DNA of 48,319 nt, taken from NCBI RefSeq assembly GCF_000786105.1, contig NZ_JTEV01000030.1, forward strand, positions 1 to 48,319, in the 5' to 3' direction. This document shows, piece after piece, positions 32,148 through 48,164 of this stretch (its first letter is position 1; each line of letters begins with the position of its first letter). This stretch comes from Bdellovibrio sp. ArHS. Its GTDB lineage: Bacteria > Bdellovibrionota > Bdellovibrionia > Bdellovibrionales > Bdellovibrionaceae. The position numbers were made by a program, and so were the translations under genes. The notes under the pieces are model-generated. The model was not told where the DNA came from, ran no database searches, and was given only the letters and a program-made list of their open reading frames with translations.

Positions 32148-32237
32148 TCTCGTCCTTATCGGTATTTTCGCGTGCATCGTGAGTGGCACTCTGTCGAGTC
32201 AGATTTCATCGGAATTTCAAGAGTGTAAGGTCCAGTC

Positions 32238-32267
32238 GCTCTGACTCACTCTAGAGCAAATTATGCG
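32238..32267 (+). promoter_or_regulatory. Shared fibre-cluster promoter element, site A
   Basis: GCTCTGAC at 32238-32245 with AGAGC at 32253-32257 and TATGCG from 32262. The same GCTCTG(A/G)C, AGAGC half-site and TAT exactly 24 bases from the first G recur at 37796 and 40241, each before a unit of the fibre island. Probably an operator or unusual promoter for the lipoprotein-fibre-LamG operon. Confidence 0.5.
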
Positions 32268-32281
32268 GCCATGCGCTCGTT

Positions 32282-32303
32282 CTTGTTCAAAAAAGAGAAC
32301 AAG
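32282..32303 (+). repeat. Inverted repeat in leader of fibre operon 1
   Basis: CTTGTTC and GAACAAG are perfect arms around an eight-base A-rich loop, in the untranslated leader between site A and the start codon at 32354. No T run follows. Confidence 0.4.
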
Positions 32304-32353
32304 GGTACCGATAGCGTCTTTGTGAATGGAGTTCGTTTTTAATAAGGAAGTTT

Positions 32354-32677
32354 ATGGACGTGTTTCAAAAGCGAGCAAACAAAAGTGAAAATAGAACGGC
32401 GTGGAAGATGCTGTCGGCATTTTTCACAGCGTTCATCTTATCCTCGTGCTCTATGCAGGCCAGCATTGTGGATCTTATAAGTCATGAGGAAGTCGTGATT
32501 CCGCAAAAAGTATCTGGCAATAAGGAAGTCGTTCCCGTCAGTCAGCAGGGAGTGGTGACGTCTTCGGGATACCGAGTTCAGTCTTCCGTCAGTTATTACA
32601 AAGGGCCCTCAGAGGTGCAAACCTCGCAAGGCTATCACGTTCGAACCAGTGTTCAATCCACCTTATTCAGGGAGTAA
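32354..32677 (+). CDS. Small lipoprotein heading the fibre 1 operon
   Basis: A 107-residue lipoprotein with lipobox LSSC (Cys32 from the first ATG). Its second half has an imperfect repeat, TSSGYRVQSSVSY and TSQGYHVRTSVQS. The start at 32354 has AAGGAAG upstream; ATG 32408 would give a shorter, more usual lipoprotein signal. It ends six bases before the fibre gene, so is co-translated with it. A plausible job is to anchor or guide the fibre at the outer membrane, but this is by position only. Confidence 0.75.
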   Translation: MDVFQKRANKSENRTAWKMLSAFFTAFILSSCSMQASIVDLISHEEVVIPQKVSGNKEVVPVSQQGVVTSSGYRVQSSVSYYKGPSEVQTSQGYHVRTSVQSTLFRE

Positions 32678-32683
32678 GCATTC

Positions 32684-35600
32684 ATGATTAAACAATACTT
32701 ACTGTTTCTGTTGGGTCTATTGTTTCTTCCGATGTCTTCCTGGGCGGGAGCGGTGATTACCTACCATGGTCGAATTGTGGATGCCGCGGGAAGACCTGTG
32801 GAAAGTTCCAACGTCACATTTACGGTCAGAATTTATAGTCCCAACCCTGACAAATGTCTTCTTTATGAGGAATCTCGAACACTGTCCATGAGCGGCAGTG
32901 ACGGTGTTTTCGTGATTCCTATCGGCGATGGTTTCGGAGCCAGAACTGCGACCGACCCGGGCATTGTTATGGAGAAAGTCTTTTCAAACGACGGTTCTTA
33001 CACCTTCAATACGGTCAACACTCCAAAATTGATCTGTCATAGTGGGACGTCTTATACACCAAATGCGTTGGATCAACGTCAGCTTTACGTCTCTTTTTCT
33101 GTGGATAGTGGGCCGGCGCAGGTTCTGCCACTTATGGATATCAATTTTGTGCCCTTAGCGGTCAACTCCTATGACACACAGAATGTGGGTGGTACTCCGG
33201 CGAGTTCCGTGCTTCGTCTTAGCAGTGGCACAGCCACCCCTTTAAGTACCGCCAACTTCACTGAACTTTTGAACTTACTCAATGGAAGTTCCTCACACTT
33301 TGAAAAGGCGGGGGAACTGGGTGGGGTCGCAGTTCCGGTTCTGGCAAATGGGCAGGTTTTGGGATGGAACGGCGGATGGACTGGTGTAACTCCGTTGACG
33401 AGTTACACTGAGACAGATCCGATGGTTAAGCCTTTCGCCAAAGCGGATCTTCCGACGTGTACGGCGAACTCATTCTTAAAGGACGATGGAAATGGAAATC
33501 TGATCTGTGCTTCCGTGAATGGAGCCAACGGCGGGACTGTCACAAGTGTGACGGCAGGAACTGGATTAAAGAACGTGACAAGTTCTGGAAACCCTATCAC
33601 CGTTTCAGGAACCCTGGCCGTCGATGTGGGAACCGGTGCGAATCAGATTGTACAGTTGGATGGCGGTGGAAAATTGCCCGTGTTGGATGGTTCGCAGCTT
33701 TCCAATGTGACGGCTTCTGCCTTATCGAGTACGGCCAGTATTAACACCTCCGGCGCTATTGCCACCACGGGAAGTTTAAGCGGACAGCAGCTAACAACCA
33801 CAGGCGATGCCCTGATCGGTGGTAATATTCAGACAACGAAGGATATTACCGCAAAAAGAATTTTTCTTTATGATCATTCGGGAAGTGGCCCGGGTTCTAT
33901 TGGCGTTCAGGCCCCCAGTGATATCGCGGGCGCGGGTGGTACTAGTTATATTTTAACACTTCCCGAAAATAAAGGGACTGCAGGACAGGTGCTTGCAGCG
34001 AAGGACAGTAATGGTGTGTTAGAGTGGATTTCTCCAAATTCAGGTTCCGTCGCCAGTGTCACGGCGGCGGGAACAGCGGGGAATCCGCTTATCATTGGAG
34101 GTACGGCGACAGCACCGACTCTGGATATTCCTGTGGCCAACGGTACGACGAATGGATATTTGTCTTCTGCGGATTGGACGACCTTCAATAGTAAACAGGT
34201 CGCGGGAAGTTACATTACTTCGCTCAATGGTGATGTGACATCCAGTGGTTATTCCGCGGGATCCGTGACAGCTTCCATCACGAATAATGCTGTGACTTCT
34301 AGTAAAATTGCCGACGGTGCCGTAGGGCAAGTGACTAAAATCATTTCCAGTCCTGGTTCTGCCGGGACGAACAGATTGATTGCGACGGACACCACGACAG
34401 GCACAACTGTCATGGATTTCTATTGTTCCACCGTAGGTCATATTCTGAAGTGGACGGGAACGACAGGGTTTGGTTGTGCAGCGCTGAGTAGTGCAGATAT
34501 TCCTTCTTTGGATGCGGCCAAGATAACCAGTGGAACTTTTGATACGGCAAGACTCGGCACCGGCACGGCGGATAATACCAAGTATCTGCGCGGCGATGGA
34601 ACGTGGCAGACGTTGAGCACTTCTGATGCGACGAAGCTCCCTCTTGGGGGTGGGCAAATGTCGGGCGCTATCGATATGAACGGGAATAAGATCGTCAATG
34701 TCACGAACATTCCTTTCGTGGCTGCGGCACCAAGCTCAGGGCAGAACGGTCAATCACTGCGCTGGAACAATACCTCGTCTCAGTGGGAATGGTTCACAGC
34801 CGGCGAGTCCGGTGCGGGTGTTTTATCCGTGTCATCGGCGAATTCCGACATTTCTATAAGTGGCACAACGAATCCGATTTTAACTTTGAATTCTGGCACC
34901 TCGGGCGGAGCCGGTGATGCGAACAAAATTGCCAAGCTAGATGGCAGTGGAAAAATAAGTTCAGGCATGCTTCCAAGCATTGCCGCTTCGAACATCACAG
35001 GAACTATAGGTGTTGCTAACGGAGGCACGGGGCAAACCAGCTATGCGATTGGTGATCTGCTTTACGCTTCTTCCCCGACTTCCTTGTCTAAGTTGGCTGC
35101 GGGAACAAATGGATACTATTTAAAAAGCAATGGCCCTGGCGTTGCTCCCAGTTGGGAATCCATCAACTCAGGGACTGTGACCTCGGTGTCTGCCGCGGCA
35201 ACCGCAGGAAATCCTCTTGTCGTGGGCGGCACTTCAGCGGCTCCGACCTTGGATCTTCCGAAGGCGACCAGTTCTGCCAATGGATATTTGTCCTCCGCCG
35301 ATTGGACGACATTCAATTCCAAACAAGCCGCAGGAAACTATATCATGGCTTTGACCGGGGACGTGACGTCGTCGGGATTTTCCAGTGGCTCTGTGACCAC
35401 AACAATTGCCAATAATGCTGTGACTTCGTCGAAGATTGCCGACGGGGCCGTAGCGTCTCTTGCAAAAGTTGTTGCTTCACCCGGGTCGGCGGGAACGAAT
35501 AGATTGTTGGCCACGGATGCAACGACGGGAACGACCATCAATGATTTTTATTGTACCACCGTCGGTCATGTTCTGAAGTGGACGGGGACGACGGGTTTTG

Positions 35601-36907
35601 GTTGTGCTAGTTTGGTAAGTTCAGATATTGCGAACTTCAATGCGGATGTGGATGCGCGGATCACAGCACAAAAAGCCGCGGCAAATGGCATTGCCTCCTT
35701 AAATGCAAATTCACGGGTGCCCGTCGCTCAATTGGGATCAGGAACGGCGAACAACACGAAGGTTTTGTACGGTGATGGCACCTGGGGCGATTTACCCAGT
35801 GGCGGCACGGTGACAAGCGTGGGACTTAGCCTTCCCAGTATATTTTCTGTGACGAATTCTCCGGTCACAAACAGTGGGACGTTGACGGCGAGTCTGGCTT
35901 CGCAAGCGGCGAATACTTTTTTGGCGGCACCAGATGGAACCACCGGAGCCCCCACATTCAGAACGATTGCTTCTGCCGATTTACCGACAATTTCCATAGC
36001 TAAAGGCGGAACTGGTGCCACGACGGCAGCCGCGGCACGAACGAACTTAGAGTTAGGAACAGCAGCGACTGTGAACACTGGAAGTGCGGCGGGGAATATT
36101 CCTGTGTTGGGTACAGGTGGTCTGAGCGCCAATAAAATGTGTACGGCGGATGGAGCCGGCAGTGGAGTTATTTGTACCTCCAGCATCCCGACAGGATCTC
36201 AATGGGTGACGGCGGGAAGTGATATTTCCTACAGCACGGGTAACGTCGGAATTGGTATGACTGCCAATAGCTTTAATCGGCTCTCGGTGAACAATTCTGG
36301 AAGTAGCATAAAGACAGCAATTGGCGTTGCAAACCTGCAAACGCCCGGGGCCGTCGGATATGGAGCACGCTTAGGATTTATGCTAGCCACCTCGGGGAGT
36401 TCATGGAGCGGTTATACGTCGAGTATTGAAGCTGTGACGGAAGATGCCTCTGTAAGTACATTTTCGTCTTCGATGCGCTTTAATAACAGAGACGGGGGCG
36501 CGGATAGAGAAATCATGAGGCTGATGCCTGGAGGCAATGTCGGCATCGGAACCACGAATCCTACAGCGAAGCTGGATGTCGTTGGGCAAATGCGCACGCA
36601 GGTGGCCAATGCCGGTGCGCCGGCCGCCAATGCTCTGACGGTGAATTGGAACAACAGTAATATTCAGTATACTTCCGGTGATTGCGGCGGGGGCACAGCG
36701 GTGACCTATACCATGCAGAATCTGCTTGATGGTGGCGTTTACACACTGGTGATGACGGGCACCAATGGTGGCACCTGCACCTTCACCGATGGAACGAATA
36801 CCTATAAGTTTCCAGCGACCGGCAGCAGTGTGACCTCGGGAAAAATGGCCACGTTTAGTTTTCTTCGTGTTGGATCGAATGTCTTTATTTCTTGGACGGA
36901 ATACTAA
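32684..36907 (+). CDS. MAT-like giant fibre adhesin 1
   Basis: A 1407-residue exported fibre resembling phage tail fibres and the mosaic adhesive trimer (MAT) proteins of Bdellovibrio, which sit on the cell surface and help recognise prey. A signal peptide (ending SSWA) is followed by an N-terminal beta-domain (about 22-165; ITYHGRIVDAAGRPV) shared with fibre 2. The shaft (about 190-1180) is built of Gly/Ser/Thr-rich beta-repeats with tail-fibre phrases such as YLRGDGTW, IANGGTGATT-like and TSSKIADGAV. The tip ends in NVGIGTTNPTAKLDV and a C-terminal beta-domain (about 1310-1407, GGVYTLVMTG ... ISWTEY). An internal segment of about 154 residues is duplicated. The start ATG has AGGGAG upstream. 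It should trimerise; the tip determines target. Confidence 0.85.
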   Translation: MIKQYLLFLLGLLFLPMSSWAGAVITYHGRIVDAAGRPVESSNVTFTVRIYSPNPDKCLLYEESRTLSMSGSDGVFVIPIGDGFGARTATDPGIVMEKVFSNDGSYTFNTVNTPKLICHSGTSYTPNALDQRQLYVSFSVDSGPAQVLPLMDINFVPLAVNSYDTQNVGGTPASSVLRLSSGTATPLSTANFTELLNLLNGSSSHFEKAGELGGVAVPVLANGQVLGWNGGWTGVTPLTSYTETDPMVKPFAKADLPTCTANSFLKDDGNGNLICASVNGANGGTVTSVTAGTGLKNVTSSGNPITVSGTLAVDVGTGANQIVQLDGGGKLPVLDGSQLSNVTASALSSTASINTSGAIATTGSLSGQQLTTTGDALIGGNIQTTKDITAKRIFLYDHSGSGPGSIGVQAPSDIAGAGGTSYILTLPENKGTAGQVLAAKDSNGVLEWISPNSGSVASVTAAGTAGNPLIIGGTATAPTLDIPVANGTTNGYLSSADWTTFNSKQVAGSYITSLNGDVTSSGYSAGSVTASITNNAVTSSKIADGAVGQVTKIISSPGSAGTNRLIATDTTTGTTVMDFYCSTVGHILKWTGTTGFGCAALSSADIPSLDAAKITSGTFDTARLGTGTADNTKYLRGDGTWQTLSTSDATKLPLGGGQMSGAIDMNGNKIVNVTNIPFVAAAPSSGQNGQSLRWNNTSSQWEWFTAGESGAGVLSVSSANSDISISGTTNPILTLNSGTSGGAGDANKIAKLDGSGKISSGMLPSIAASNITGTIGVANGGTGQTSYAIGDLLYASSPTSLSKLAAGTNGYYLKSNGPGVAPSWESINSGTVTSVSAAATAGNPLVVGGTSAAPTLDLPKATSSANGYLSSADWTTFNSKQAAGNYIMALTGDVTSSGFSSGSVTTTIANNAVTSSKIADGAVASLAKVVASPGSAGTNRLLATDATTGTTINDFYCTTVGHVLKWTGTTGFGCASLVSSDIANFNADVDARITAQKAAANGIASLNANSRVPVAQLGSGTANNTKVLYGDGTWGDLPSGGTVTSVGLSLPSIFSVTNSPVTNSGTLTASLASQAANTFLAAPDGTTGAPTFRTIASADLPTISIAKGGTGATTAAAARTNLELGTAATVNTGSAAGNIPVLGTGGLSANKMCTADGAGSGVICTSSIPTGSQWVTAGSDISYSTGNVGIGMTANSFNRLSVNNSGSSIKTAIGVANLQTPGAVGYGARLGFMLATSGSSWSGYTSSIEAVTEDASVSTFSSSMRFNNRDGGADREIMRLMPGGNVGIGTTNPTAKLDVVGQMRTQVANAGAPAANALTVNWNNSNIQYTSGDCGGGTAVTYTMQNLLDGGVYTLVMTGTNGGTCTFTDGTNTYKFPATGSSVTSGKMATFSFLRVGSNVFISWTEY
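34039..34500 (+). repeat. Fibre 1 internal repeat, copy 1
   Basis: Encodes about 154 shaft residues (from SGSVASVTAAGTAGNP to GFGCAALSSADI) that recur at 35167-35629. Amino-acid identity is high with many synonymous differences. Confidence 0.75.
35167..35629 (+). repeat. Fibre 1 internal repeat, copy 2
   Basis: The second copy of the shaft segment at 34039-34500 (from SGTVTSVSAAATAGNP to GFGCASLVSSDI), offset by about 1128 bases. Confidence 0.75.
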
Positions 36908-36919
36908 AAGAGGAATGTC

Positions 36920-37705
36920 GTGAAAGAGCAATTGGTTCTAGGAAGATGTTTGCGGGATCTCTTTTGTGTTTTGATTTTTTTAGGAGCGACTTGGGGTGGT
37001 CATTCTGTGGTGGAAGCCAATCCCATGCAGATGCGTGTCTTTCATTCGACCAAGGGAGAGGATCCCTATTCGGGAAGTGTCGTGTTGGGATTGCACATGG
37101 ATGGAGCCAACGGTGGCTCCACCTTTACTGATGTCAAAGGCAAAACGATCACTCTGACGGGATCTCCCACCACCAGTACAGCGCAAGTGAAGTACGGCAC
37201 AGCCAGCGGACTGTTTGCGAAAGGTCATCGTCTGGTTTTGCCCACCAGTGCGGATTTCACATATAATGGAGATTTCACTATTGAGACCTGGGTCTATCCG
37301 ACGGTCCTGCAAACCGCGTGGGGAATTTTTGACGCCAGAACCAACGGAGGAACCGCGGCGATGTACTGTATGGGTTTGGTGAATGTTGGGGGTGTTTACC
37401 GTTTGGAATATTTTAATGGGACCTCTTATAAAGCCACTTCCACTTCTGTGGCCATCAATACCTGGAGCCATGTTGCTATTGTTCGAAGCGGATCGACATT
37501 GAGTTTTTATGTTAATGGAGTCAAGGATTCGACCACGGCGACAATTGCGGCCACTCAAACAGGTGGTACGTCTCCTGTAATAGGAACTAAAGACGACGGC
37601 TTGGCCGGTTACGGTATCGTGGGCTACTTAGACGATTTCAGAATCACTAAAGGTGTCGCGCGATATACTGCGAATTTTACCCCTCCCAGCAAAGCCTTTC
37701 CCTGA
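36920..37705 (+). CDS. Secreted LamG-like jellyroll protein
   Basis: A 261-residue exported protein. A signal-like N-terminus (LFCVLIFLGATWGGHSVVEA) is followed by a LamG/concanavalin-like domain (about 55-260) with FTIETWVYP, NTWSHVAIVRSG and FYVNGVKD. The last segment, YLDDFRITKGVARYTANF, is the phrase seen again and again in phage tail and virion LamG proteins, so the domain was likely acquired from a phage. GTG start with AAGAGGA upstream, 12 bases after the fibre stop. It may be a carbohydrate-binding accessory of the fibre. Confidence 0.83.
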   Translation: MKEQLVLGRCLRDLFCVLIFLGATWGGHSVVEANPMQMRVFHSTKGEDPYSGSVVLGLHMDGANGGSTFTDVKGKTITLTGSPTTSTAQVKYGTASGLFAKGHRLVLPTSADFTYNGDFTIETWVYPTVLQTAWGIFDARTNGGTAAMYCMGLVNVGGVYRLEYFNGTSYKATSTSVAINTWSHVAIVRSGSTLSFYVNGVKDSTTATIAATQTGGTSPVIGTKDDGLAGYGIVGYLDDFRITKGVARYTANFTPPSKAFP

Positions 37706-37795
37706 TTGATTTTGCGGTGGAAGGTTTCCTTTTGTTTTTTCTAAGGAATCGTTTTCCCGGGGATTCTACCGATGCCCATATTTCTTGCAACTAGT

Positions 37796-37825
37796 GCTCT
37801 GGCCGTGATAAGAGCGCTTTATATA
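37796..37825 (+). promoter_or_regulatory. Shared fibre-cluster promoter element, site B
   Basis: GCTCTGGC at 37796-37803 with AGAGC at 37811-37815 and TATATA from 37820, upstream of the TIGR02147 regulator. Same geometry as sites A and C (TAT 24 bases from the first G). A TTGCAA at 37785 may add a -35-like box. Confidence 0.5.
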
Positions 37826-37878
37826 TGCTTTTTAGCGTAGGATCTTTGAACGGCGAAATAACTGTTGGGTGGAATTGA

Positions 37879-38622
37879 ATGGATACTCCGGCTGATTTTC
37901 TTAAGTCCGTTTATCATGCAAGAAAGAGCAAGAATCATCGCTACTCTCTGAGAGCTTTTGCGGTGTCACTTGGGATTTCGTCAGGACGGCTGTCTGATAT
38001 TTTAAATGGCCGACAGCGCATCTCGAATAAGGCGGCCGCAGCCCTGGCTAGCAAGCTGGGAGTCGATCGGGACCAACAAGAACTCTTCATTCAAGTCAGT
38101 CGAGCCTATAACGAACGAACTGAATACGTCGGCGAGGACACGATTTCTTTGGATCTAGAACAATTCAGACTGATTTCCGATCCGGTTTACTTCTATATTC
38201 TTTCGCTGCTAAAAACGACGGTGGCCGAGATGGGGGTTGAGCGCATCGCCGAACGCCTGGGTTACTCCTCGGAGGTGATTGGAACCGCCTTGGAAAATCT
38301 TGAAAAGCTGGGTTTTTTGGCGCGAAACGGGGGACGGTTGATTCCCAAATCCGCCAGCATCATCACCCCCACCGATATTCCTTCCGAAATCATCCGCGAG
38401 TCTCACAAAAAAAGAATTACCAAAGCCATAGAATCTTTGACTGAATCCTCTGTCTCTGAAAGAGATATCACCTCGATGACGATGGCCATTGACGTTAAAA
38501 AAATTCCTGAAGCCAAAAAGATGATTCGTCAGTTCCGAAGAAAGTTAAGTAAATTTTTAGAGGAGGGGGAGGCCTCGGAAGTTTATGATCTCAATATTCA
38601 ACTTATCAAAATCAGTCGTTAA
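37879..38622 (+). CDS. TIGR02147-family transcriptional regulator
   Basis: A 247-residue protein of the TIGR02147 family, a paralogous group best known from Bdellovibrio and Fibrobacter. An N-terminal helix-turn-helix (about 20-75; SLRAFAVSLGISSGRLSDILNGRQRISNKAA) is followed by a winged-helix-like part (about 110-150; GVERIAERLGYSSEVIGTALENLEKLGFLA) and a helical C-terminus. It should bind DNA. It overlaps the secreted-protein gene by 38 bases and lies under site B, so autoregulation and control of the flanking fibre operons are reasonable but unproved. No good ribosome site is visible before ATG 37879 (GGGTGGAATTGA). Confidence 0.85.
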   Translation: MDTPADFLKSVYHARKSKNHRYSLRAFAVSLGISSGRLSDILNGRQRISNKAAAALASKLGVDRDQQELFIQVSRAYNERTEYVGEDTISLDLEQFRLISDPVYFYILSLLKTTVAEMGVERIAERLGYSSEVIGTALENLEKLGFLARNGGRLIPKSASIITPTDIPSEIIRESHKKRITKAIESLTESSVSERDITSMTMAIDVKKIPEAKKMIRQFRRKLSKFLEEGEASEVYDLNIQLIKISR

Positions 38623-39739
38623 GGTCGGTCTCTTTCTCTTGATTGCGAGTCACGCGAACGCCGGCTATGAAGTCGGCAATGGTGGTGACGCACTTTTGTG
38701 TGACGACCGCGTTGTTCTTTTGGATCTGGACGAAGCCGGGGGTGTTCACTCCTTTCAATTGGAATCCATAACAGATCCTTTCGAACGCACTCAGGAACTA
38801 TTAAAGGCTTGGCAGTTCCTAGATCCGCAACGATCAGCCCAATGGCTGCGAGAGCTGGAATACCTTAAGAATCATATTCGCTGGACTGCGGGCGGGGAAT
38901 CCCTTGCGAATATTTCCGATGAAGGCCCGGTTAAAGTTCCGGTTGAATGTGCTTTGAACCAGGCTGCGGTGCAAAGTCGCGATCCCATCAATGACAGCTA
39001 CACCTACGATTTCGATGCGCAAATCTGGAAGATGTTTGACGGGAACTCAAAGGCCGCTCTTTTAATTCACGAAGTCTTATTCAAGAATCTTTTAGACAGT
39101 CTGCCGGGGGCGCACTCCTATTTAATTCGTCCCATGGTTCGCGTGATCATGAGTGAAAACCCTCAGGACTATAATTTAGCACGTTATCTGAGTTTCTTAA
39201 GCAAGATTGGTTTTACTTACTATAATTACCAAGGCTGGCTTGTGGATTTGCACCAACCCTTTGTGGCCGACGACGGCGTCCTTCTGGAAGCCCAGGTCTT
39301 GCGGGACCTTAAACAAGAATGCTCTTGGAAATTGAAATACAATAAGGACAGAAATCTTACGACAGTCGTTGCGGGTGATTCTTGTCGAAGACCTTCATTC
39401 ACAACCGCCGTTACTTTGCAGTCGGGACTTTTTCTTGAAGGACATTTTGTTCAGGTGCAGTATAAAAATGAACAACTGTATTCCGCATTGTCCGTTTATG
39501 GTGGGTTCGACATTGCTGATAAGGACGGGTCGGTCGTTGGTTCGGTCAGTTCCTTAATACGAAACTATCAGGTGTCCGTCACAAATGAAGAAGGCCAACG
39601 TCGAACTCGCATTTATGTCTGGACTCAGAAAGAGACAACGTGTTCAGATCTTATCTTCGGTGACTGGCAGCAATATCTTTCCTGCGATGCCGGGAAAAGC
39701 AATGAGAACAGCCGAATCTTTACACTGGAAATGAAATAG
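38585..39739 (+). CDS. Secreted protein coupled to the TIGR02147 regulator
   Basis: A 384-residue exported protein with signal peptide ending HANAG and a mature N-terminus GYEVGNGGDALLCDD, a phrase I associate with a Bdellovibrionota-specific secreted family often encoded beside TIGR02147 genes. The middle has KAALLIHEVLFKNLLDSLPGAHSYL, with a HE pair, and the C-terminal half is beta-rich with six or so cysteines. Function unknown. Its ATG is inside the regulator gene (38-base overlap) with GGAAG before it, implying translational coupling and balanced amounts. Confidence 0.75.
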   Translation: MISIFNLSKSVVKVGLFLLIASHANAGYEVGNGGDALLCDDRVVLLDLDEAGGVHSFQLESITDPFERTQELLKAWQFLDPQRSAQWLRELEYLKNHIRWTAGGESLANISDEGPVKVPVECALNQAAVQSRDPINDSYTYDFDAQIWKMFDGNSKAALLIHEVLFKNLLDSLPGAHSYLIRPMVRVIMSENPQDYNLARYLSFLSKIGFTYYNYQGWLVDLHQPFVADDGVLLEAQVLRDLKQECSWKLKYNKDRNLTTVVAGDSCRRPSFTTAVTLQSGLFLEGHFVQVQYKNEQLYSALSVYGGFDIADKDGSVVGSVSSLIRNYQVSVTNEEGQRRTRIYVWTQKETTCSDLIFGDWQQYLSCDAGKSNENSRIFTLEMK

Positions 39740-39869
39740 GCGGTAACCATCTTTGGGCCTGTTCTTCTAAGTGAAAGAGCAGAACTTGGTTCGTCGGCGA
39801 GCGCGGGTTTCGAAATGGTTTGAATCAGAATTCTTGATCAGCTTACGATTTTGGTAAGAGGGAGAATTC

Positions 39870-40193
39870 ATGATTGTCATCAGAAAGACGAAAGCTCAAT
39901 CAGAGGCACCACAGATCACTGACGAAGAAAGAAGTCTGGAAGTGCGCGAGGAGATTCGTGTCATCCTTGAAGATTTAATCAAAAGGATGGTTATTCAGGC
40001 TGATTCCGTCGTTGTGAAGGCCGAGATCGGCGCCAAGACCACCGTCTATCGAGTAGACTGTTCAAAAGAATGTATTGGATATCTTATCGGTGTTCGTGGA
40101 CAAAACATCATGGCACTTCGCGGAGTCGTCAAAGCCCTGGCCGGCCGGCATAATATAAGGGCCATCATAGAAATTCCTTACTTCTCGCCATAG
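39870..40193 (+). CDS. KH-domain RNA-binding protein (KhpA-like)
   Basis: A 107-residue cytoplasmic protein with one KH domain in the C-terminal 75 residues; the GxxG loop is in GVRGQN (GYLIGVRGQNIMALRGVVKAL), which binds single-stranded RNA. It resembles KhpA (YlqC) with an extra charged N-terminal stretch of about 30 residues. KhpA normally works with KhpB in RNA handling and cell-length control. ATG with AGAGGGAGAATTC upstream. It sits between the regulator unit and fibre 2 and is probably not part of either. Confidence 0.82.
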   Translation: MIVIRKTKAQSEAPQITDEERSLEVREEIRVILEDLIKRMVIQADSVVVKAEIGAKTTVYRVDCSKECIGYLIGVRGQNIMALRGVVKALAGRHNIRAIIEIPYFSP

Positions 40194-40240
40194 TCCTACC
40201 CCGGTTTAAAAAAATTTTTAAAAGGTCGCAATGAATCCCC

Positions 40241-40270
40241 GCTCTGACGGACCGTCAGAGCGAATATTTC
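40241..40270 (+). promoter_or_regulatory. Shared fibre-cluster promoter element, site C
   Basis: A perfect 21-base palindrome (GCTCTGACGG-A-CCGTCAGAGC, 40241-40261) followed by TATTTC from 40265, upstream of fibre 2. It keeps the 24-base GCTCT-to-TAT distance of sites A and B and is the most symmetric of the three. Confidence 0.55.
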
Positions 40271-40360
40271 CTCGCATCGATTGAGCCACCAAAATAACTC
40301 TCCGAACAGTATGTGGATATTTTTCGAATTTATGGGGACGTATTAGTGAGAGGTCGAATT

Positions 40361-43300
40361 ATGAGCCCAAAAAAAGTTCTAATAGTTGCAGTGCTCGCGG
40401 TTCTTTTCGGTTCACTTGCATGGGCGACGCCCACCAATTTGACTTATCAGGGCCGCATCATTAAGTCGGATGGCCAGCCTTTAGAGTACGAAAACGTCAG
40501 CTTCGTTTTTCAGATCCTAAATCCCACGGGATCTTGTGTGATTTTTCAAGAGCAGGTTTACGGCTATAATATGGTGAACTCCAAAGGGGTTTTCGATGTT
40601 CCCATCGGTAAGGGGACTGTTCAGTATCCCTTAAGTGCCGGGGCCACGGCCTTAGCCGCTTTTAATAATAACGACCCATTCACCTGTGGCGTATGTTCTT
40701 CTTCCAGCGGTAGTTATAGTTGTAGTACGGGATCAGGAACTTACACACCGTTAACTGATGATGGACGCGTCCTGCGTGTGCATTTCTATGATGGGCAAGG
40801 ATGGAGAACGATTTCCCCAGACAACGTGATTCGCTCGGTGCCGTTTGCGGGTTATGCGATCTCTGCCCAAAAGCTGGGGTCCTATTCTTCCTCTGACTTC
40901 TTAACAAAAATCGGCATTCCTACCTGTAATAGCGGAGAGTATTTAAGCTGGAATGGCAGTGTCATGTCTTGCGTAGCCGTTAGCGGGGCCTCCGGAGGCA
41001 CCGTGACCAATGTGAGCAGCGCCAATAGTTATTTGACCGTCACAGACGCGGGCACCACTCCTGTTTTAACAGTCCATGTGGGAACCACGGCCAATACGGT
41101 GGCCGCCGGCAATGACTCGCGCTTTACCGATGCTCGAACTCCCACCGGTTCTGCCGGAGGAGATTTGGGAGGCAGCTACCCATCTCCGACCGTGGAAAAA
41201 ATCAAAGGGCAGTCGATCAGTGCAACCGCCAGCGGACCGGGGCAAGTTCTGCGCTTTGATGGCGGAAGCTGGACGCCGGCTGCTTTAAAACTTTCGGATC
41301 TGGCCGGCGTTGCCGGAACTGTCGGAAGTGCTTTCAGTGTTTCAAGTTGTAGTGCGCATGAAACCTTAAATTGGTCTTCACTAACGGATTCCTTCACCTG
41401 TCAGGCCATTAACGGCTTGGATGCGGCGAAGGTCACAAGTGGGACTTTTGCGACGGCTCGTTTAGGAACGGGAACGGCAGATACGACAAAATATCTTCGC
41501 GGCGATGGAACGTGGCAGACTTTAAACACCTCAGACTCGACAAAACTTCCCTTAAGCGGTGGCCAGATGTCAGGTGACATCGACATGAATGGGCATAAAA
41601 TCTTGAATGTCACCAACGTTCCGTTTGTGGCAGCGGCTCCCAGCTCGGGGCAAAATGGTCAGACTTTACGTTGGAACAATGTTTCGGGTGAGTGGGAATG
41701 GTTCACGGCGGGTGAATCCGGCGCCGGTGTTTTGTCGGTGTCTTCTGCTAATACAGATATAGGTGTCAGCGGTTCGGCGAATCCTATTTTAACTTTGAAC
41801 TCTGCCACCTCAGGGGGGGCGGGGGACGCCAATAAGATCGCAAAATTAGATGGCAACGGTCGTTTGACTTCAGCGATGCTGCCGACGATGACCGCGAATA
41901 AAGCTCTCGTCTCAAACTCGAGTGGTGTGATCACCAGCTCTGCAGTGTCTGATGCAGAGCTCGGTTATCTTTCCGGAGTCTCTTCTTCTTTGCAAACGCA
42001 GTTGAACTCTAAGTTGTCGGCGACTGTGGCGTCGCCATCGGCAGGACAGGTCCTTCGTCATGATGGCTCCAACTGGGTGAATGCGACTCTGGGCTTTGCA
42101 GATCTTTCCGGTCAACCGACCACCTTAAGCGGTTATGGTATTACGGACGCGTTGAGTTCCACTTTGAATGATGGAAGTATTTTTGTCGGCAACGGATCTA
42201 ATATCGCCACAGGCGTGACGATGTCGGGGGACGCCACTCTTAGCAATACCGGCGCTTTAACTTTAAAAAACACCGGAACCGCGGGAACCTACTATAAGGT
42301 GACGACGGATGCACAAGGCCGCGTGACGGCGGGGGCTGCATCCTTGGTGGCTGCGGATATTCCCTCTCTGGATTGGAGTAAAATCACGACGGGTAAACCC
42401 ACAACCTTGGGTGGTTATGGAATTACTGACAGTGTTGTGAATGGCGGCGGCGTTGGCAAAATTACCGCCGGCCTTGAGGGCGCAGCTCCCGCAGGAAGTG
42501 CCACCGGAGATCTTTTCGTCGCAACGGATTCGCAAAAAATTTACCGATACAATGGAGCGACCTGGGATTTGATCAGCTCCGCCAGTGGATCCGGCGGAAC
42601 GATCACAGGTGTGACCGCCGGCACAGGTCTTAGTGGCGGGGGCGCTAGTGGCGCCGTGACTTTGAACTTGGCCAACACGGCGGTGAGTGCGGGCTCGTAT
42701 GGTTCAGCGACTCAAGTGGCCACATTTTCTGTGGATGCCCAGGGACGCTTAACCAGCGCGGGCCATGTGACTATCACTGGTACGGTGCCTGGCGGTTCGG
42801 CTGGTGGAGACCTTGGTGGAACCTATCCAAATCCAGCGGTGAATAAAATCAAAGGACAGACCGTGAGTGCGACTGCCACAACTGCCGGGCAAGTCCTTCG
42901 TTATGATGGGGGCGATTGGACTCCGGCGGCTTTGAAGCTCGCGGATCTTGCGGGTGTGGCGGGAACTGTCGGCAGTGCGTTCAGTGTTTCCAGTTGTAGC
43001 GCGAATGAGACTTTGAATTGGTCTTCATTGACGGATTCTTTCACTTGTCAGGCTATCAACGGTTTGGATGCTGCAAAAGTAACAACCGGAACTTTGGCGG
43101 TTGCCCGTTTAGGAACAGGTACTGCGGATAACACCAAATATCTTCGCGGTGATGGGACATGGCAAACGATCAGCACCTCGGATGCGACGAAGCTGCCACT
43201 AGCTGGTGGCCAGATGTCGGGTGATATCGACATGAACGGAAATAAAATTTTAAATGCGGCGAAGAATGTTCCCTCTGTGGGGACCGTGCCAAGCTCGGGT

Positions 43301-44734
43301 CAGAACGGTCAGTCGTTGCGTTGGAACAACACTTCCGGCCAGTGGGAATGGTTCACCGCAGGCGAATCCGGCGCTGGCGTGTTGTCCGTTTCTTCCGCCA
43401 ATGCAGACATTTCTGTGAGCGGTTCCACGAGTCCTATTCTGACTTTGAATTCGGGCACAGCGGGTGGCGCGGGTGACGCCAATAAGATCGCCAAACTGGA
43501 TGCCAGTGGTAAGTTGGCTTCGACAATGCTTCCGAATATTGCGGCTTCGAATATCACGGGTGTTCTTCCCATCGCGCATGGTGGAACGAATTCCTCTGCG
43601 ACGTTGATTAACAATCGTATCATGGCCTCCAGTGGCGGAGCCATCATTGAAGCGGCCGCGATCACGGCGAACAAAGCTTTGATTTCTGACGGTAATGGTA
43701 TTCCGACTGCATCTTCTGTCAGCCACACAGAGCTGGGCTATTTGTCAGGAGTGACTTCGTCCGTGCAAACACAACTCGATACAAAATTGTCGGCCACGGT
43801 GACGTCGCCTGCAACGGGGCAGGTGCTTCGCTATAGCGGAAGTGCCTGGGTGAATGCGGCAGTTAATGCGGCAACGGACCTCACTGGAACTTTGGCGATT
43901 GCCAATGGTGGTACCGGTGCGACAACAGCGGCGGCGGCTCGAACGAACTTAGGTTTGGGAACCTCTGCGACAGTGAATACGGGAAATGCCGCGGGAAATA
44001 TTCCACTACTTGGTACCGGCGGATTGGTCGCGAATAAGATGTGTACCGCGGACTCGACTGGCAATGGTGTTATTTGTACCTCCACGATCCCGACTGGATC
44101 GCAATGGGTGACTGCGGGAAGTGATATATACTACAGCGCGGGACAGGTGGGCATTGGTCTTTCCAACCCCACAAATAAGCTTCAGGTTCACGAGGGGGAT
44201 GTTCAGATAACGACCACTACCACGGGCGCGACCCAAAATGACGGTTTTATTATGGGGTACAACGGCAATGATTTTCGCATGGTAAATCGCCAGGTGGCGG
44301 GTTCGATTCAGATGGGTACAAACGGAAATTTAGATCAATTCACACTTACCACGGCTCCAGAAGGGGGCCGCATTGGTCTTGGTACGACCACACCACAGGT
44401 GAAATTAGACGTGGTCGGTGGAGCTGTCGTTTCGCGCACGAATATTATTAATTCCGGATCTATCGTAAATCTAACTTTGGCAAATAATCATCTTTTAAAA
44501 TCCGTCGGCGGTGACGTTATCACGTTAGACAACATCGTGGATGGCGGAACTTATACTTTGGTTATATCCGACACCACGTCGCGCACCTACACTTTTTCAG
44601 GATGTACAAATTCCTATTTCAATCCTGCCAATGGCGCCACCGAAGCCGGCGCTCGTAGCACCTATACCATTTTAACTGTGCAAGATGGCGCCAACCTAGA
44701 TTGTTATATTTCTTGGATGAGTGGATTCCAATAG
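40361..44734 (+). CDS. MAT-like giant fibre adhesin 2
   Basis: A 1457-residue exported fibre, paralogous to fibre 1. Signal peptide (MSPKKVLIVAVLAVLFGSLAWA) and an N-terminal beta-domain (NLTYQGRIIKSDGQPLEYENVSF), then a long shaft with two copies of a block of about 245 residues (YLRGDGTWQTL, SGQNGQSLRWNN, ANKIAKLD) and two copies of an ELGYLSGV segment, and a tip with VGIGLSNPTNKLQV, LGTTTPQVKLDV and a C-terminal beta-domain ending CYISWMSGF. Surface adhesion to prey or substrate is the expected function from the MAT group. Start: ATG 40361 after GAGAGGTCG; an in-frame GTG at 40313 would add 16 non-signal residues. The propeller gene follows after 10 bases. Confidence 0.85.
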   Translation: MSPKKVLIVAVLAVLFGSLAWATPTNLTYQGRIIKSDGQPLEYENVSFVFQILNPTGSCVIFQEQVYGYNMVNSKGVFDVPIGKGTVQYPLSAGATALAAFNNNDPFTCGVCSSSSGSYSCSTGSGTYTPLTDDGRVLRVHFYDGQGWRTISPDNVIRSVPFAGYAISAQKLGSYSSSDFLTKIGIPTCNSGEYLSWNGSVMSCVAVSGASGGTVTNVSSANSYLTVTDAGTTPVLTVHVGTTANTVAAGNDSRFTDARTPTGSAGGDLGGSYPSPTVEKIKGQSISATASGPGQVLRFDGGSWTPAALKLSDLAGVAGTVGSAFSVSSCSAHETLNWSSLTDSFTCQAINGLDAAKVTSGTFATARLGTGTADTTKYLRGDGTWQTLNTSDSTKLPLSGGQMSGDIDMNGHKILNVTNVPFVAAAPSSGQNGQTLRWNNVSGEWEWFTAGESGAGVLSVSSANTDIGVSGSANPILTLNSATSGGAGDANKIAKLDGNGRLTSAMLPTMTANKALVSNSSGVITSSAVSDAELGYLSGVSSSLQTQLNSKLSATVASPSAGQVLRHDGSNWVNATLGFADLSGQPTTLSGYGITDALSSTLNDGSIFVGNGSNIATGVTMSGDATLSNTGALTLKNTGTAGTYYKVTTDAQGRVTAGAASLVAADIPSLDWSKITTGKPTTLGGYGITDSVVNGGGVGKITAGLEGAAPAGSATGDLFVATDSQKIYRYNGATWDLISSASGSGGTITGVTAGTGLSGGGASGAVTLNLANTAVSAGSYGSATQVATFSVDAQGRLTSAGHVTITGTVPGGSAGGDLGGTYPNPAVNKIKGQTVSATATTAGQVLRYDGGDWTPAALKLADLAGVAGTVGSAFSVSSCSANETLNWSSLTDSFTCQAINGLDAAKVTTGTLAVARLGTGTADNTKYLRGDGTWQTISTSDATKLPLAGGQMSGDIDMNGNKILNAAKNVPSVGTVPSSGQNGQSLRWNNTSGQWEWFTAGESGAGVLSVSSANADISVSGSTSPILTLNSGTAGGAGDANKIAKLDASGKLASTMLPNIAASNITGVLPIAHGGTNSSATLINNRIMASSGGAIIEAAAITANKALISDGNGIPTASSVSHTELGYLSGVTSSVQTQLDTKLSATVTSPATGQVLRYSGSAWVNAAVNAATDLTGTLAIANGGTGATTAAAARTNLGLGTSATVNTGNAAGNIPLLGTGGLVANKMCTADSTGNGVICTSTIPTGSQWVTAGSDIYYSAGQVGIGLSNPTNKLQVHEGDVQITTTTTGATQNDGFIMGYNGNDFRMVNRQVAGSIQMGTNGNLDQFTLTTAPEGGRIGLGTTTPQVKLDVVGGAVVSRTNIINSGSIVNLTLANNHLLKSVGGDVITLDNIVDGGTYTLVISDTTSRTYTFSGCTNSYFNPANGATEAGARSTYTILTVQDGANLDCYISWMSGFQ
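41150..41885 (+). repeat. Fibre 2 internal block, copy 1
   Basis: Encodes about 245 shaft residues (SAGGDLGGSYPSP to GRLTSAMLP) repeated at 42796-43535. Part of the block also matches fibre 1 at about 34550-34975. Confidence 0.75.
42796..43535 (+). repeat. Fibre 2 internal block, copy 2
   Basis: The second copy of the block at 41150-41885 (SAGGDLGGTYPNP to GKLASTMLP), offset by about 1650 bases. A shorter segment with ELGYLSGV follows each copy (about 41888-42095 and 43668-43870). Confidence 0.75.
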
Positions 44735-44744
44735 GAGCAGCAAC

Positions 44745-47700
44745 ATGAAGCAAGGCACGTTCTTCAAAGCCATTTTTTGTTTCGGCATTCTCGGTGCTCT
44801 TTTCTTTTCACCACAAATTTTTGGTCAGGCCGCTGGGTCGATGCCATTTGGTTTTTTTTCACAGAAAGGAATTTTGTGGGGGCAGCCAATTCCCGGGATG
44901 AAAGCAGAGTGTTTTGCTGGGGAAGTCGGGAATGTTCTAAAGCTCAGTGACAACAGAACTCTGTTGTATGGCGGGTTTTCTACGGCGGGTCCCTGCACAG
45001 GGTCGGGGGTCTCGTTGGATTCTGGGACGGCAGCGCCCGTCAGCGGATTCGATGCATCGACGATGGCTGTTGATGGGCCCGTGTGGCATAGCGTCTCTGA
45101 CGGAGCGGGCGGATGGTATATCGCCGGCGAATTTGAACACGTCGGTGGCATCCCTCGTAACGGGTTGGCGCATATCAATGGCAATGGCCAACTGGATCTG
45201 TCTTTTTTGCCACCTGCAAAAATTAGTGGATGGCAAATATATGCACTGGCTTTTGGTGGGGGACGCCTTTATGTCGGAGGCGTTGGCGACAAAGAAAGTC
45301 AGAATGGCGGCGTGCCCTTGAGTATGAGTGATGGCTTCTATATCAGACCGGAGTCTTCGTTTCAAAAGAGCGACTTCAATGGACATATCTACGCCGTCAT
45401 CTCAGATGGCAATGGCGGGTGGTTTGTCGGAGGAGACTTTACTTCCTTTCAAGATGTCGATTTAGCAGGAGGGCTTGCTCATCTTCATGCCGACGGAACT
45501 CTGGATGAGGGGTTTGCTCCTGGAGTGAATGGGTACGTGAACGCGCTTTATCTCAGCGGCAGTACACTTTATGTCGGTGGAGCCTTTACAACCATTGCGG
45601 GTGTTTCAAGAGCGAATCTTGCCTCATTAAGTGCCGTCACCGGAGTGGCAACTTCCTGGGCCCCAGAGTCCAACGATTGGATCAATACCATAGCGGTTTC
45701 TGGTGCAACGGCCTATGTGGGCGGATGGTTTACGACAGTGGGTGGGGCTGCAAGAAATTACATGGCCGCCTTGGATACGACGACGGGTCTTGCCACATCG
45801 TGGAATCCGGATGCTGACGGGATCGTTTTATCCATCGCCGTTTCGGGATCCACAGTCTATGCCGGTGGTTGGTTCGAGGCTATTGGTGGCAGTTCTCGAA
45901 ATCATATAGCCGCCCTTAATGCGACGACGGCCTTGGCGACCGCGTGGAATCCAAATGCCAATGACGGTGTTTCGTCCATCGCGGTTTCCGGTTCAACGGT
46001 CTATGTCGGCGGTTGGTTTAGCAGCATTGGTGGGGCCGCAAGAAATAGAATAGCCGCTTTAGATGTTACTACAGGCGTGGCGACTTCTTGGGACCCAGAT
46101 GCGAACAGCGAAATTTTATCACTGGCAGTTTCTGGTTCGACAGTTTACGTAGGAGGATACTTTACCTCCATCGGTGGTGCGGCAAGAGAATATCTGGCGG
46201 CACTAGATACGGCAACGGGGCTTGCGACAGCCTGGAACCCGAACGCGGACGGTGGTGTGTACTCTATCGCTGTTTCGGGTTCGACAGTCTATGTTGGCGG
46301 AGAATTTAGTACTGCCGGATCGGATCCAAGGGTCGGATTAGCCGCCCTTGATAGCGCCACCGGAGCTCTAACATCATGGACTCCCGATCCCAATGGAAAT
46401 ATCGAAACGATCGCAGTTTCTGGTTCGACAGTTTATGCCGGAGGTCAGTTTAACGCCATTGGTGGCGCTTCCCGAAATCACATAGCCGCTTTAAATGCGA
46501 CGACGGCCGTGGCGACAGCTTGGAATCCCAATCCTGATGGGACGACAGTGGATGTCATCACCGTCTCTGGTTCGACAGTTTATGTGGGCGGAAATTTTTC
46601 TACTATTGGTGGTGTTTTGCGACCGCTGTTAGCCGCTCTGGATACGACGACGGGTCTTGCCACTTCGTGGAATCCAGCGCCTAGTGGTCCCATTACCGAA
46701 ATTTCAGTTTCTGGTTCCACAATTTATGTCAGTGGATATTTCTCGGTCATCGGTGGAGCTTCAAGAAATAATCTAGCAGCTTTGGATGTCACCACGGGTG
46801 TTGCCACGGACTGGGACCCAAACCCAAATGATGGAATCTCGGCATTTGCTGTCTCTGGCTCAACGATTTATGTGATTGGGTATTTCACCAGCATTGGTGG
46901 TGCTTCCAGAAGTAAAATAGCTGCGATCGACGCGACCACGGGACTTGCGACATCCTGGAATCCCAAACCTGCGGACCGGGACATTGCGTGTATTGCGGCC
47001 TCGGGTTCGTCTGTATACGTGGGCGGGGAATTCACCGTCATCGGGTCCGGACTTTCACGCAGTGGACTGGCCGTCATCGAGTCCTCGACAGGATTGCTCA
47101 CAACCTGGAGCGCGCCCGATTTTTATAAAGTGGGCGATTACTTCTGGATCACCGATGTCGAAGTTCTTAGCTCTAAAATATTTGTCGGAGGATATTTTGA
47201 TGCCGTGGGTGGAACCGCCAGAAGTAATCTTGTGGCCTTAGATGGAGTCTCTGGAAAGGTGACGGCGTGGGATCCGAATCCAAACGGAGATATTTGGCAA
47301 ATGGAACGTCAGGGAAATACGCTTTATGTTCTGGGTGGTTTTAATACGATAGGCGGAGAAAACCGCTACACCTTAGCAGGAATTAATCTTGTTGGGGGAG
47401 GTATCACTGCTTGGGATCCTTCACCCAATGGACCGGCCGCAACAATGTTGGTTTCCGGATCAACTGTCTATGTGAGTGGATGGTTCACCAGTATGGGTGG
47501 GAGTTCGCGCAACTTATTGGCGTCTGTTGACGCGACCACCGGAGCCGTCTTGTCCTGGAACCCCGATCCGGATGGTGAGATTGCCCAAATGACTTTGGCG
47601 GCTTCGCAGATGTATGTAGTGGGCTCCTTTACCACCATTGGCGGGGTTTCAAGAAATGGGGTTGCGGCATTGGATGCCACGATGGGCTCGGGGGTCACGG

Positions 47701-48164
47701 GGTTCGATCCTGCATTGGATGCTGGAGAAATCAGGCAGGTTTGGGTGCAAGGATCTAAAATATACATCAGTTTCGACAGCGACGCTACGATGGTGGACGG
47801 GGTTCCGCGAAAGAATATGGCGTCGTTTGATACTGGCTCGGCGACTTTGAATTCTTGGGTGACACAGTTTAATTCCAGCTGTTCAGGATGCCGCTATGTT
47901 GTGGCTTCGACAGATTCTGCGATTTATCTGACAGGCCCATTTACCCAGGTGGGCGGTACTTACAGAAATGGCGTCGCGGCCGTTGATCCCGAGACGGGCG
48001 CTTTACTGCCTTGGAATGCGGATGTGAATGGGGCCTGGGGCATAAGCAGTATTAAATTGGTTGATGATCGTCTTTATCTTTTGGGGGCATTTACAACAAT
48101 CAACGGTCAAGTTCGCGGCGGCTTTGGTGTTGTCGATCCTGTGACGGGAGCTTTATTATGGTAG
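44745..48164 (+). CDS. Secreted 21-repeat beta-propeller protein
   Basis: A 1139-residue exported protein (signal peptide about residues 5-27, ending IFGQA). After about 100 residues it consists of 21 tandem units of about 48 residues on the pattern VSGSTVYVGGWFTSIGGASRNHIAALDATTGLATSWNPNPNG, related to the delta-60/Rax2-like propeller repeats. The first three and the last four are more diverged. Twenty-one is three times seven, which suits three seven-bladed propellers. There are no catalytic motifs; a binding or scaffold role is likely. Start ATG 44745 with TAGGAG upstream, 10 bases after the fibre 2 stop, and the next gene overlaps its stop by seven bases, so all three are one operon. Function with the fibre is inferred. 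Confidence 0.83.
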   Translation: MKQGTFFKAIFCFGILGALFFSPQIFGQAAGSMPFGFFSQKGILWGQPIPGMKAECFAGEVGNVLKLSDNRTLLYGGFSTAGPCTGSGVSLDSGTAAPVSGFDASTMAVDGPVWHSVSDGAGGWYIAGEFEHVGGIPRNGLAHINGNGQLDLSFLPPAKISGWQIYALAFGGGRLYVGGVGDKESQNGGVPLSMSDGFYIRPESSFQKSDFNGHIYAVISDGNGGWFVGGDFTSFQDVDLAGGLAHLHADGTLDEGFAPGVNGYVNALYLSGSTLYVGGAFTTIAGVSRANLASLSAVTGVATSWAPESNDWINTIAVSGATAYVGGWFTTVGGAARNYMAALDTTTGLATSWNPDADGIVLSIAVSGSTVYAGGWFEAIGGSSRNHIAALNATTALATAWNPNANDGVSSIAVSGSTVYVGGWFSSIGGAARNRIAALDVTTGVATSWDPDANSEILSLAVSGSTVYVGGYFTSIGGAAREYLAALDTATGLATAWNPNADGGVYSIAVSGSTVYVGGEFSTAGSDPRVGLAALDSATGALTSWTPDPNGNIETIAVSGSTVYAGGQFNAIGGASRNHIAALNATTAVATAWNPNPDGTTVDVITVSGSTVYVGGNFSTIGGVLRPLLAALDTTTGLATSWNPAPSGPITEISVSGSTIYVSGYFSVIGGASRNNLAALDVTTGVATDWDPNPNDGISAFAVSGSTIYVIGYFTSIGGASRSKIAAIDATTGLATSWNPKPADRDIACIAASGSSVYVGGEFTVIGSGLSRSGLAVIESSTGLLTTWSAPDFYKVGDYFWITDVEVLSSKIFVGGYFDAVGGTARSNLVALDGVSGKVTAWDPNPNGDIWQMERQGNTLYVLGGFNTIGGENRYTLAGINLVGGGITAWDPSPNGPAATMLVSGSTVYVSGWFTSMGGSSRNLLASVDATTGAVLSWNPDPDGEIAQMTLAASQMYVVGSFTTIGGVSRNGVAALDATMGSGVTGFDPALDAGEIRQVWVQGSKIYISFDSDATMVDGVPRKNMASFDTGSATLNSWVTQFNSSCSGCRYVVASTDSAIYLTGPFTQVGGTYRNGVAAVDPETGALLPWNADVNGAWGISSIKLVDDRLYLLGAFTTINGQVRGGFGVVDPVTGALLW
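45063..48161 (+). repeat. Tandem repeats of about 144 bases (21 units)
   Basis: Coding repeats of the propeller gene. Central units are similar even at DNA level (for instance GTTTCTGGTTCGACAGTTTA occurs near 46128, 46410 and 46563), which suggests recent expansion by unequal recombination. Confidence 0.8.

Follow-up and report, generated by a model that had tools for sequence, protein, structure and literature searches.

The window considered here is the whole stretch of 48,319 nucleotides from Bdellovibrio sp. ArHS (contig NZ_JTEV01000030.1). The genes that concern us all lie on its forward strand and comprise two fibre units, a regulator and the genes between them.

32354-32677, + strand: small lipoprotein-like gene, first of the fibre 1 unit
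32684-36907, + strand: MAT (mosaic adhesive trimer) fibre 1, Bdello_MAT_N
36920-37705, + strand: Laminin_G_3 (lectin-like) protein, downstream of fibre 1
37879-38622, + strand: TIGR02147/DUF4423 regulator, the proposed binding protein
38585-39739, + strand: secreted protein overlapping the regulator, a recurrent partner of TIGR02147 genes
39870-40193, + strand: KH-domain gene, KhpA/B-like
40361-44734, + strand: MAT fibre 2, Bdello_MAT_N; its open frame could start at GTG 40313

Against the NCBIfam model Bdello_MAT_N, for which the curated cut-off is 60 bits, the two fibres score 117.1 and 205.7 bits. Directly after fibre 2 lies a long secreted repeat protein made of VSGSTVYVGG... units (44721-48164), which may join the fibre 2 unit.

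The regulator scores 101.5 bits against TIGR02147 (cut-off 50) and 144.5 bits against DUF4423 (cut-off 30). Its predicted model (pLDDT 87) has an N-terminal XRE-type HTH, with weak PDB matches to HigA and lambda repressor, and a C-terminal winged-helix-like half, with weak matches to MarR/ArsR. There are 17 matches to this regulator family in the genome and up to ~30 TIGR02147 matches per genome in Bdellovibrio relatives, and no orthologue of the window's own regulator was found elsewhere at more than 42% identity. Together with the overlapping secreted protein and the KH gene, the regulator forms a recurrent cassette. Throughout the genus, TIGR02147 genes are repeatedly overlapped or followed by a gene for a secreted protein (38585-39739 in the window, 557-1810 in locus L006, 8904-9512 in locus L124), often accompanied by a KH gene; the window's example has no Pfam match. 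Within the loci fetched for holding MAT genes, the only ones counted, 6/79 MAT genes lie within 500 bp of a TIGR02147 gene, compared with 4/329 other large genes (p=0.005).

Four inverted repeats, one of them degenerate, stand upstream of these units.

32238-32257, + strand: operator-like inverted repeat 1, GCTCT-N10-AGAGC, preceding the fibre 1 unit
37796-37815, + strand: operator-like inverted repeat 2, GCTCT-N10-AGAGC, preceding the regulator
39761-39780, + strand: degenerate repeat GTTCT-N10-AGAGC, one mismatch, 90 bp before the KH gene
40241-40261, + strand: operator-like inverted repeat 3, GCTCT-N11-AGAGC, preceding fibre 2

The original prediction had described a promoter-like element, composed of GCTCTG(A/G)C, AGAGC and TAT, at 32238, 37796 and 40241, and each site matches that description exactly (GCTCTGACTCACTCTAGAGCAAATTAT, GCTCTGGCCGTGATAAGAGCGCTTTAT and GCTCTGACGGACCGTCAGAGCGAATAT, respectively). 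What is robust in all three is the inverted repeat GCTCT-N10/11-AGAGC, which forms dyads of 20-21 bp, and site 3 is a perfect 10-1-10 palindrome, GCTCTGACGGACCGTCAGAGC. Agreement of this kind had been judged unlikely to arise by chance, and for the inverted repeat this judgement is upheld: GCTCT-N9-12-AGAGC is observed three times in the window against an expectation of 0.11, and an inverted repeat of this kind was shared in only 1/300,000 random triples drawn from real upstream regions of these genomes. The accompanying claim that the intervening KH gene is free of it is mistaken or, at the least, overstated, because the degenerate copy precedes that gene; the probability of such a copy arising by chance within 140 bp is 0.004.

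Searching the complete 3.54-Mb genome for GCTCTG-N8-11-AGAGC returned 12 distinct sites, and the chance of three of these falling inside 8 kb is 0.003. When GCTCTG-N8/9-CAGAGC was allowed up to one mismatch, 14 sites were found, nine of them within unrelated genes and one spanning the convergent ends of two genes. Clear intergenic promoter sites number four, namely the window's three and one further clean copy at the head of another MAT fibre operon, on contig C27.

C27:13299-13318: fourth copy, from the genome-wide scan, reading GCTCTGCAGTCATTCAGAGCGGATATTTCA towards a lipoprotein gene

All four of these sites stand before the regulator or MAT units, an exclusive placement that is observed directly, and the genome's two perfect copies both head MAT units. 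The co-directional gene run behind the fourth copy encodes the lipoprotein, a 769-aa protein and a 1104-aa MAT fibre, which bears an S74 chaperone domain and passes the NCBIfam MAT_N model. Beyond the right arm, this copy and site 3 have CAGAGCG(A/G)ATATTTC in common. Looser matches, for example on contigs C4 and C10, are intergenic too; they lack the sixth arm base and have no fibre gene behind them. The repeat is found within 500 bp upstream of only 2/19 MAT genes of this genome, both in the window, and we rejected the idea of an operator ahead of all of the organism's fibres; the C27 copy, at the head of its gene run, lies further than 500 bp upstream of its MAT gene. A palindrome near a paralogous regulator on contig C19 was also rejected, being located within a coding gene.

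The TIGR02147-fibre clusters of three other Bdellovibrio species share this layout and carry different palindromes: GAGCGC-N9-GCGCTC (genome G044), GTTCT-N9-AGAAC (G025) and GCTCC-N10-GGAGC (G048). The G044 cluster contains five, one preceding the KH gene, one the regulator, two the MAT gene, and one in the interval between two divergent genes; that whole genome has seven against none for the reversed control. In G025, GTTCT-N8/9-AGAAC, exact or with one mismatch, occurs before regulator genes, MAT genes and secreted-protein genes, and in the G048 fibre island GCTCC-N10-GGAGC stands ahead of both the regulator and KH, and also separates a MAT gene from a second regulator. We surveyed 100 loci for repeats in the 200 bp upstream of a gene that recur in non-coding sequence within ~20 kb, and these accompany 9/46 TIGR02147 genes compared with 53/1550 control genes. 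The excess persists when the window is left out (8/45, p=2e-4) and among independent loci (7/44, p=0.001), and the clear cases of recurrence are MAT clusters.

Orthologous regulators report on what is conserved within a palindrome. The G056 orthologue of the G044 regulator (68% identical) has exact arms and the same N9 spacing 91 bp before its start, with a different spacer sequence, and the G025 orthologue keeps 10/12 arm bases. Conserved arms around a changed spacer are the mark expected from a dimeric DNA-binding protein. The recognition helix is nearly identical in the window regulator (SSGRL) and those of loci L128 (SSGRL) and L154 (SIGRL), and all three go with GCTC half-sites. A single operator serving all TIGR02147 regulators was nevertheless rejected, since the enrichment of G(T/C)TC(C/T) dyads upstream of regulators is no more than mild (8/72 vs 24/777). 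Elsewhere in the window's own genome, on contig C6 (locus L103; 9618, 13919, 16846 and 19215), TGTGT-N12-ACACA occurs four times around a different TIGR02147 gene and is possibly a second regulon. The original suggestion that the repeats tie the fibre island into a regulon gains support from the C27 MAT operon and from the cluster-specific palindromes that TIGR02147, KH and fibre units share in other genomes. The same layout around different palindromes suggests that each fibre island may have its own dedicated switch.

Attack-phase promoters of Bdellovibrio follow the FliA consensus TTAAG-N16-CCGATA (PMC3627812), and most MAT promoters in our set fit it. For MAT genes in loci L095-L194 (own genome, G025, G044, G048 and G056), with corrected starts, CCGATA is present in the 150 bp upstream of 53/97, as against 76/1366 controls (p~9e-35). 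In 28 of the 97 its position relative to the start codon is exactly -14 and a FliA -35 is correctly spaced from it, so that the mRNAs would have no leader or almost none; neither of the window's two fibres is arranged in this way.

To relate the repeats to such promoters, we made a sigma28 matrix from MAT promoters outside operator clusters and used it to scan downstream of 22 operator-bearing promoters. Among single offsets, the best places CCGATA at the repeat centre +50, and sigma28-type -10 elements follow the repeats at 49-51 or 59-61 bp. This phase set scores 47.8 compared with 34.3 +/- 2.0 for circular shifts, in a test that was designed after the pattern had been seen and that draws much of its strength from G025. 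Both the window and G044 have it as their best set; in G025 it ranks second, behind the neighbouring +48. Without the window the phase retains P=0.0003, and the window alone, at the phase learned elsewhere, gives P=0.006; with both the window and G025 left out, the fixed-phase P is 0.006 and the search-corrected P is 0.26. On 64 other regulator upstream regions the phase ranks 3 of 65, a modest held-out support. Strong sigma28 sites in general are not enriched for palindromes at +50/+60, which makes the arrangement a peculiarity of these clusters. The candidates in the window are as follows.

32285-32315, + strand: sigma28-like candidate of fibre 1; -10 CCGATA exact at 32308-32313, -35 TCAAA weak; repeat centre +61
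37830-37860, + strand: very weak sigma28-like match before the regulator, low confidence; in phase, repeat centre +48
40279-40309, + strand: weak sigma28-like candidate of fibre 2, TTGAG-N16-CCGAAC; repeat centre +51

When 96 offsets were compared for each fibre, the in-phase site scored best both for fibre 1 (CCGATA at 32308) and for fibre 2 (CCGAAC at 40302). The matches for the regulator and C27 are hardly above background, and C27 has no convincing sigma28 site. Transcription from sigma28 promoters starts 6-7 bases after the -10 hexamer, and relative to the start predicted in this way the dyad centre falls at about -62 or -72, in steps of one turn, which is a class I activator position. 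Three further features were seen around such promoters. A second dyad, TTGTTC-N8-GAACAA (32284-32303), lies over the fibre 1 candidate and may serve another regulator. The best-scoring FliA-type site in the window (32155-32185, - strand; score 18.2) belongs to the gene divergent to fibre 1, which has CCGATAAG 16 bases upstream of its likely ATG (32147). On contig C16 of the same genome (locus L095, 7415, + strand), another MAT gene closely follows a sigma28 -10, and 60 bp ahead of that -10 is the dyad GAGAACATTATGCTATTTTTGTTCTC, the same geometry with another palindrome.

We consider it probable that these operators are bound by the TIGR02147 protein, which would regulate its own gene and the fibre units and would probably do so as a class-I-like activator acting on weak sigma28-type promoters. 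The regulator encoded at 37879-38622 would bind the 20-21 bp dyads, most likely as a dimer, at its own gene, at the two neighbouring MAT-fibre units, weakly at KH and at the C27 MAT operon. With dyad centres ~62 or 72 bp upstream of the predicted start, it would most likely be a local activator, and the effect would be co-expression of one set of prey-recognition fibres through a private switch layered on the attack-phase sigma factor. What the analysis shows directly are the sites, where they stand in the genome, the layout common to several species and the phase to sigma28-type -10 elements. The regulon that we infer comprises the regulator itself with the fibre units on either side, the C27 MAT operon and, probably, KH; the binding, the dimerisation, the preference for activation over repression and the use of sigma28 are likewise proposed.

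Other readings of the repeats need to be weighed against this. On the + strand, none of the three sites has a match to the sigma70 -35/-10 hexamers, and the repeats keep a fixed phase upstream of sigma28-type -10s; for these reasons they look like operators, the name promoter-like is not supported, and they are best read as operators and not promoters. That the element is itself a promoter, with TAT within its -10 region, is barely credible to us. The constant 24-bp distance to TAT that had been pointed out, on which this idea draws, does stand in the three window copies, as a weak signal (P~0.01 for any shared trimer), but it becomes 23 in the C27 copy, palindromes in other clusters have no TAT at a fixed spacing, and the dyad symmetry would be left unexplained. 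It is also very improbable that the repeats are RNA hairpins (terminators or leader structures) or chance resemblances. Site 3 would form a 10-pair hairpin after KH that is weakly terminator-like, but sites 1 and 2 fold no better than shuffles, and a hairpin at all three sites was rejected because only site 3 is stable. There was no Rfam match to a riboswitch or other known RNA, the sites are found ahead of units, and the genome-wide placement together with the recurrence excludes chance.

If the repeats are real operators of a shared regulon, they could still be bound by a factor encoded elsewhere, with the TIGR02147 gene only a target, and the 17 family matches in the genome and the site on another contig would suit such a factor. 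We regard this as improbable given that the palindromes of several species accompany the local TIGR02147 gene, vary by cluster and follow orthologous regulators, and that near-identical recognition helices pair with GCTC half-sites. Harder to set aside, if unlikely, is a regulator that binds the same operators as a repressor and autorepressor, silencing the fibre set until a signal releases it. Many autoregulators of the XRE type repress from dyads in their own promoter region, the HTH half is similar to lambda repressor and HigA, and the repeats might overlap other promoters, the transcription starts being predicted only. Against this, the dyads lie far upstream of the sigma28-type elements (~-62/-72), the usual place for an activator, and do so repeatedly in one-turn steps. 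Activation by the TIGR02147 protein remains the reading that we prefer.

Extending this to the family is more tentative, and we offer it as a possibility only: TIGR02147 proteins may be lineage-specific, operator-selective activators of sigma28 promoters, each fibre island having its own regulator and a private palindrome at class I phase. An explicit operator, target set and geometry are now proposed for TIGR02147 regulators, which are numerous in these genomes; the literature searched does not mention TIGR02147 and gave no operators, sites or targets for these regulators, and DUF4423 was seen only as a table entry. The proposal also suggests that private regulator-operator pairs would leave fibre islands separately switchable. 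If this is the case, the predator would switch sets of prey-recognition fibres independently within its attack-phase programme, which bears on how Bdellovibrio picks among its many prey-recognition fibres.

Control of a gene by its own product through dyads is well known. The XRE autoregulators lambda CI/Cro and HigA have the same HTH type and a dyad before their own gene and targets, and here too a dyad precedes the regulator's gene and is common to the proposed target units. The present system differs from these in its second winged-helix-like half (DUF4423), in its predator fibre targets, and in dyads that lie upstream of the sigma28-type elements and not over them. Class I activators such as CRP have their dyad near -61.5 or one helical turn further, and the window-type dyad centre, ~62/72 bp upstream of the predicted start in one-turn steps, is alike; in contrast with CRP, the protein family is unrelated, the promoters are of sigma28 rather than sigma70 type, and activation is what we infer. 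The FliA attack-phase regulon of Bdellovibrio bacteriovorus (PMC3627812) is similar in having CCGATA-type -10s near fibre units, whereas the window promoters are weak matches with an extra palindrome, and no such operator was found in the sections of that report consulted. Both window fibres and the C27 fibre resemble the MAT fibres of PMC10769870 in passing MAT_N; promoters and operons gave no matches when the text of that paper was searched, and regulation is what the present analysis adds. Compared with the literature searched, what appears to be new is a set of private palindromes through which a TIGR02147 regulator would be linked to fibres for prey recognition, with a class-I-like spacing to sigma28-type elements.
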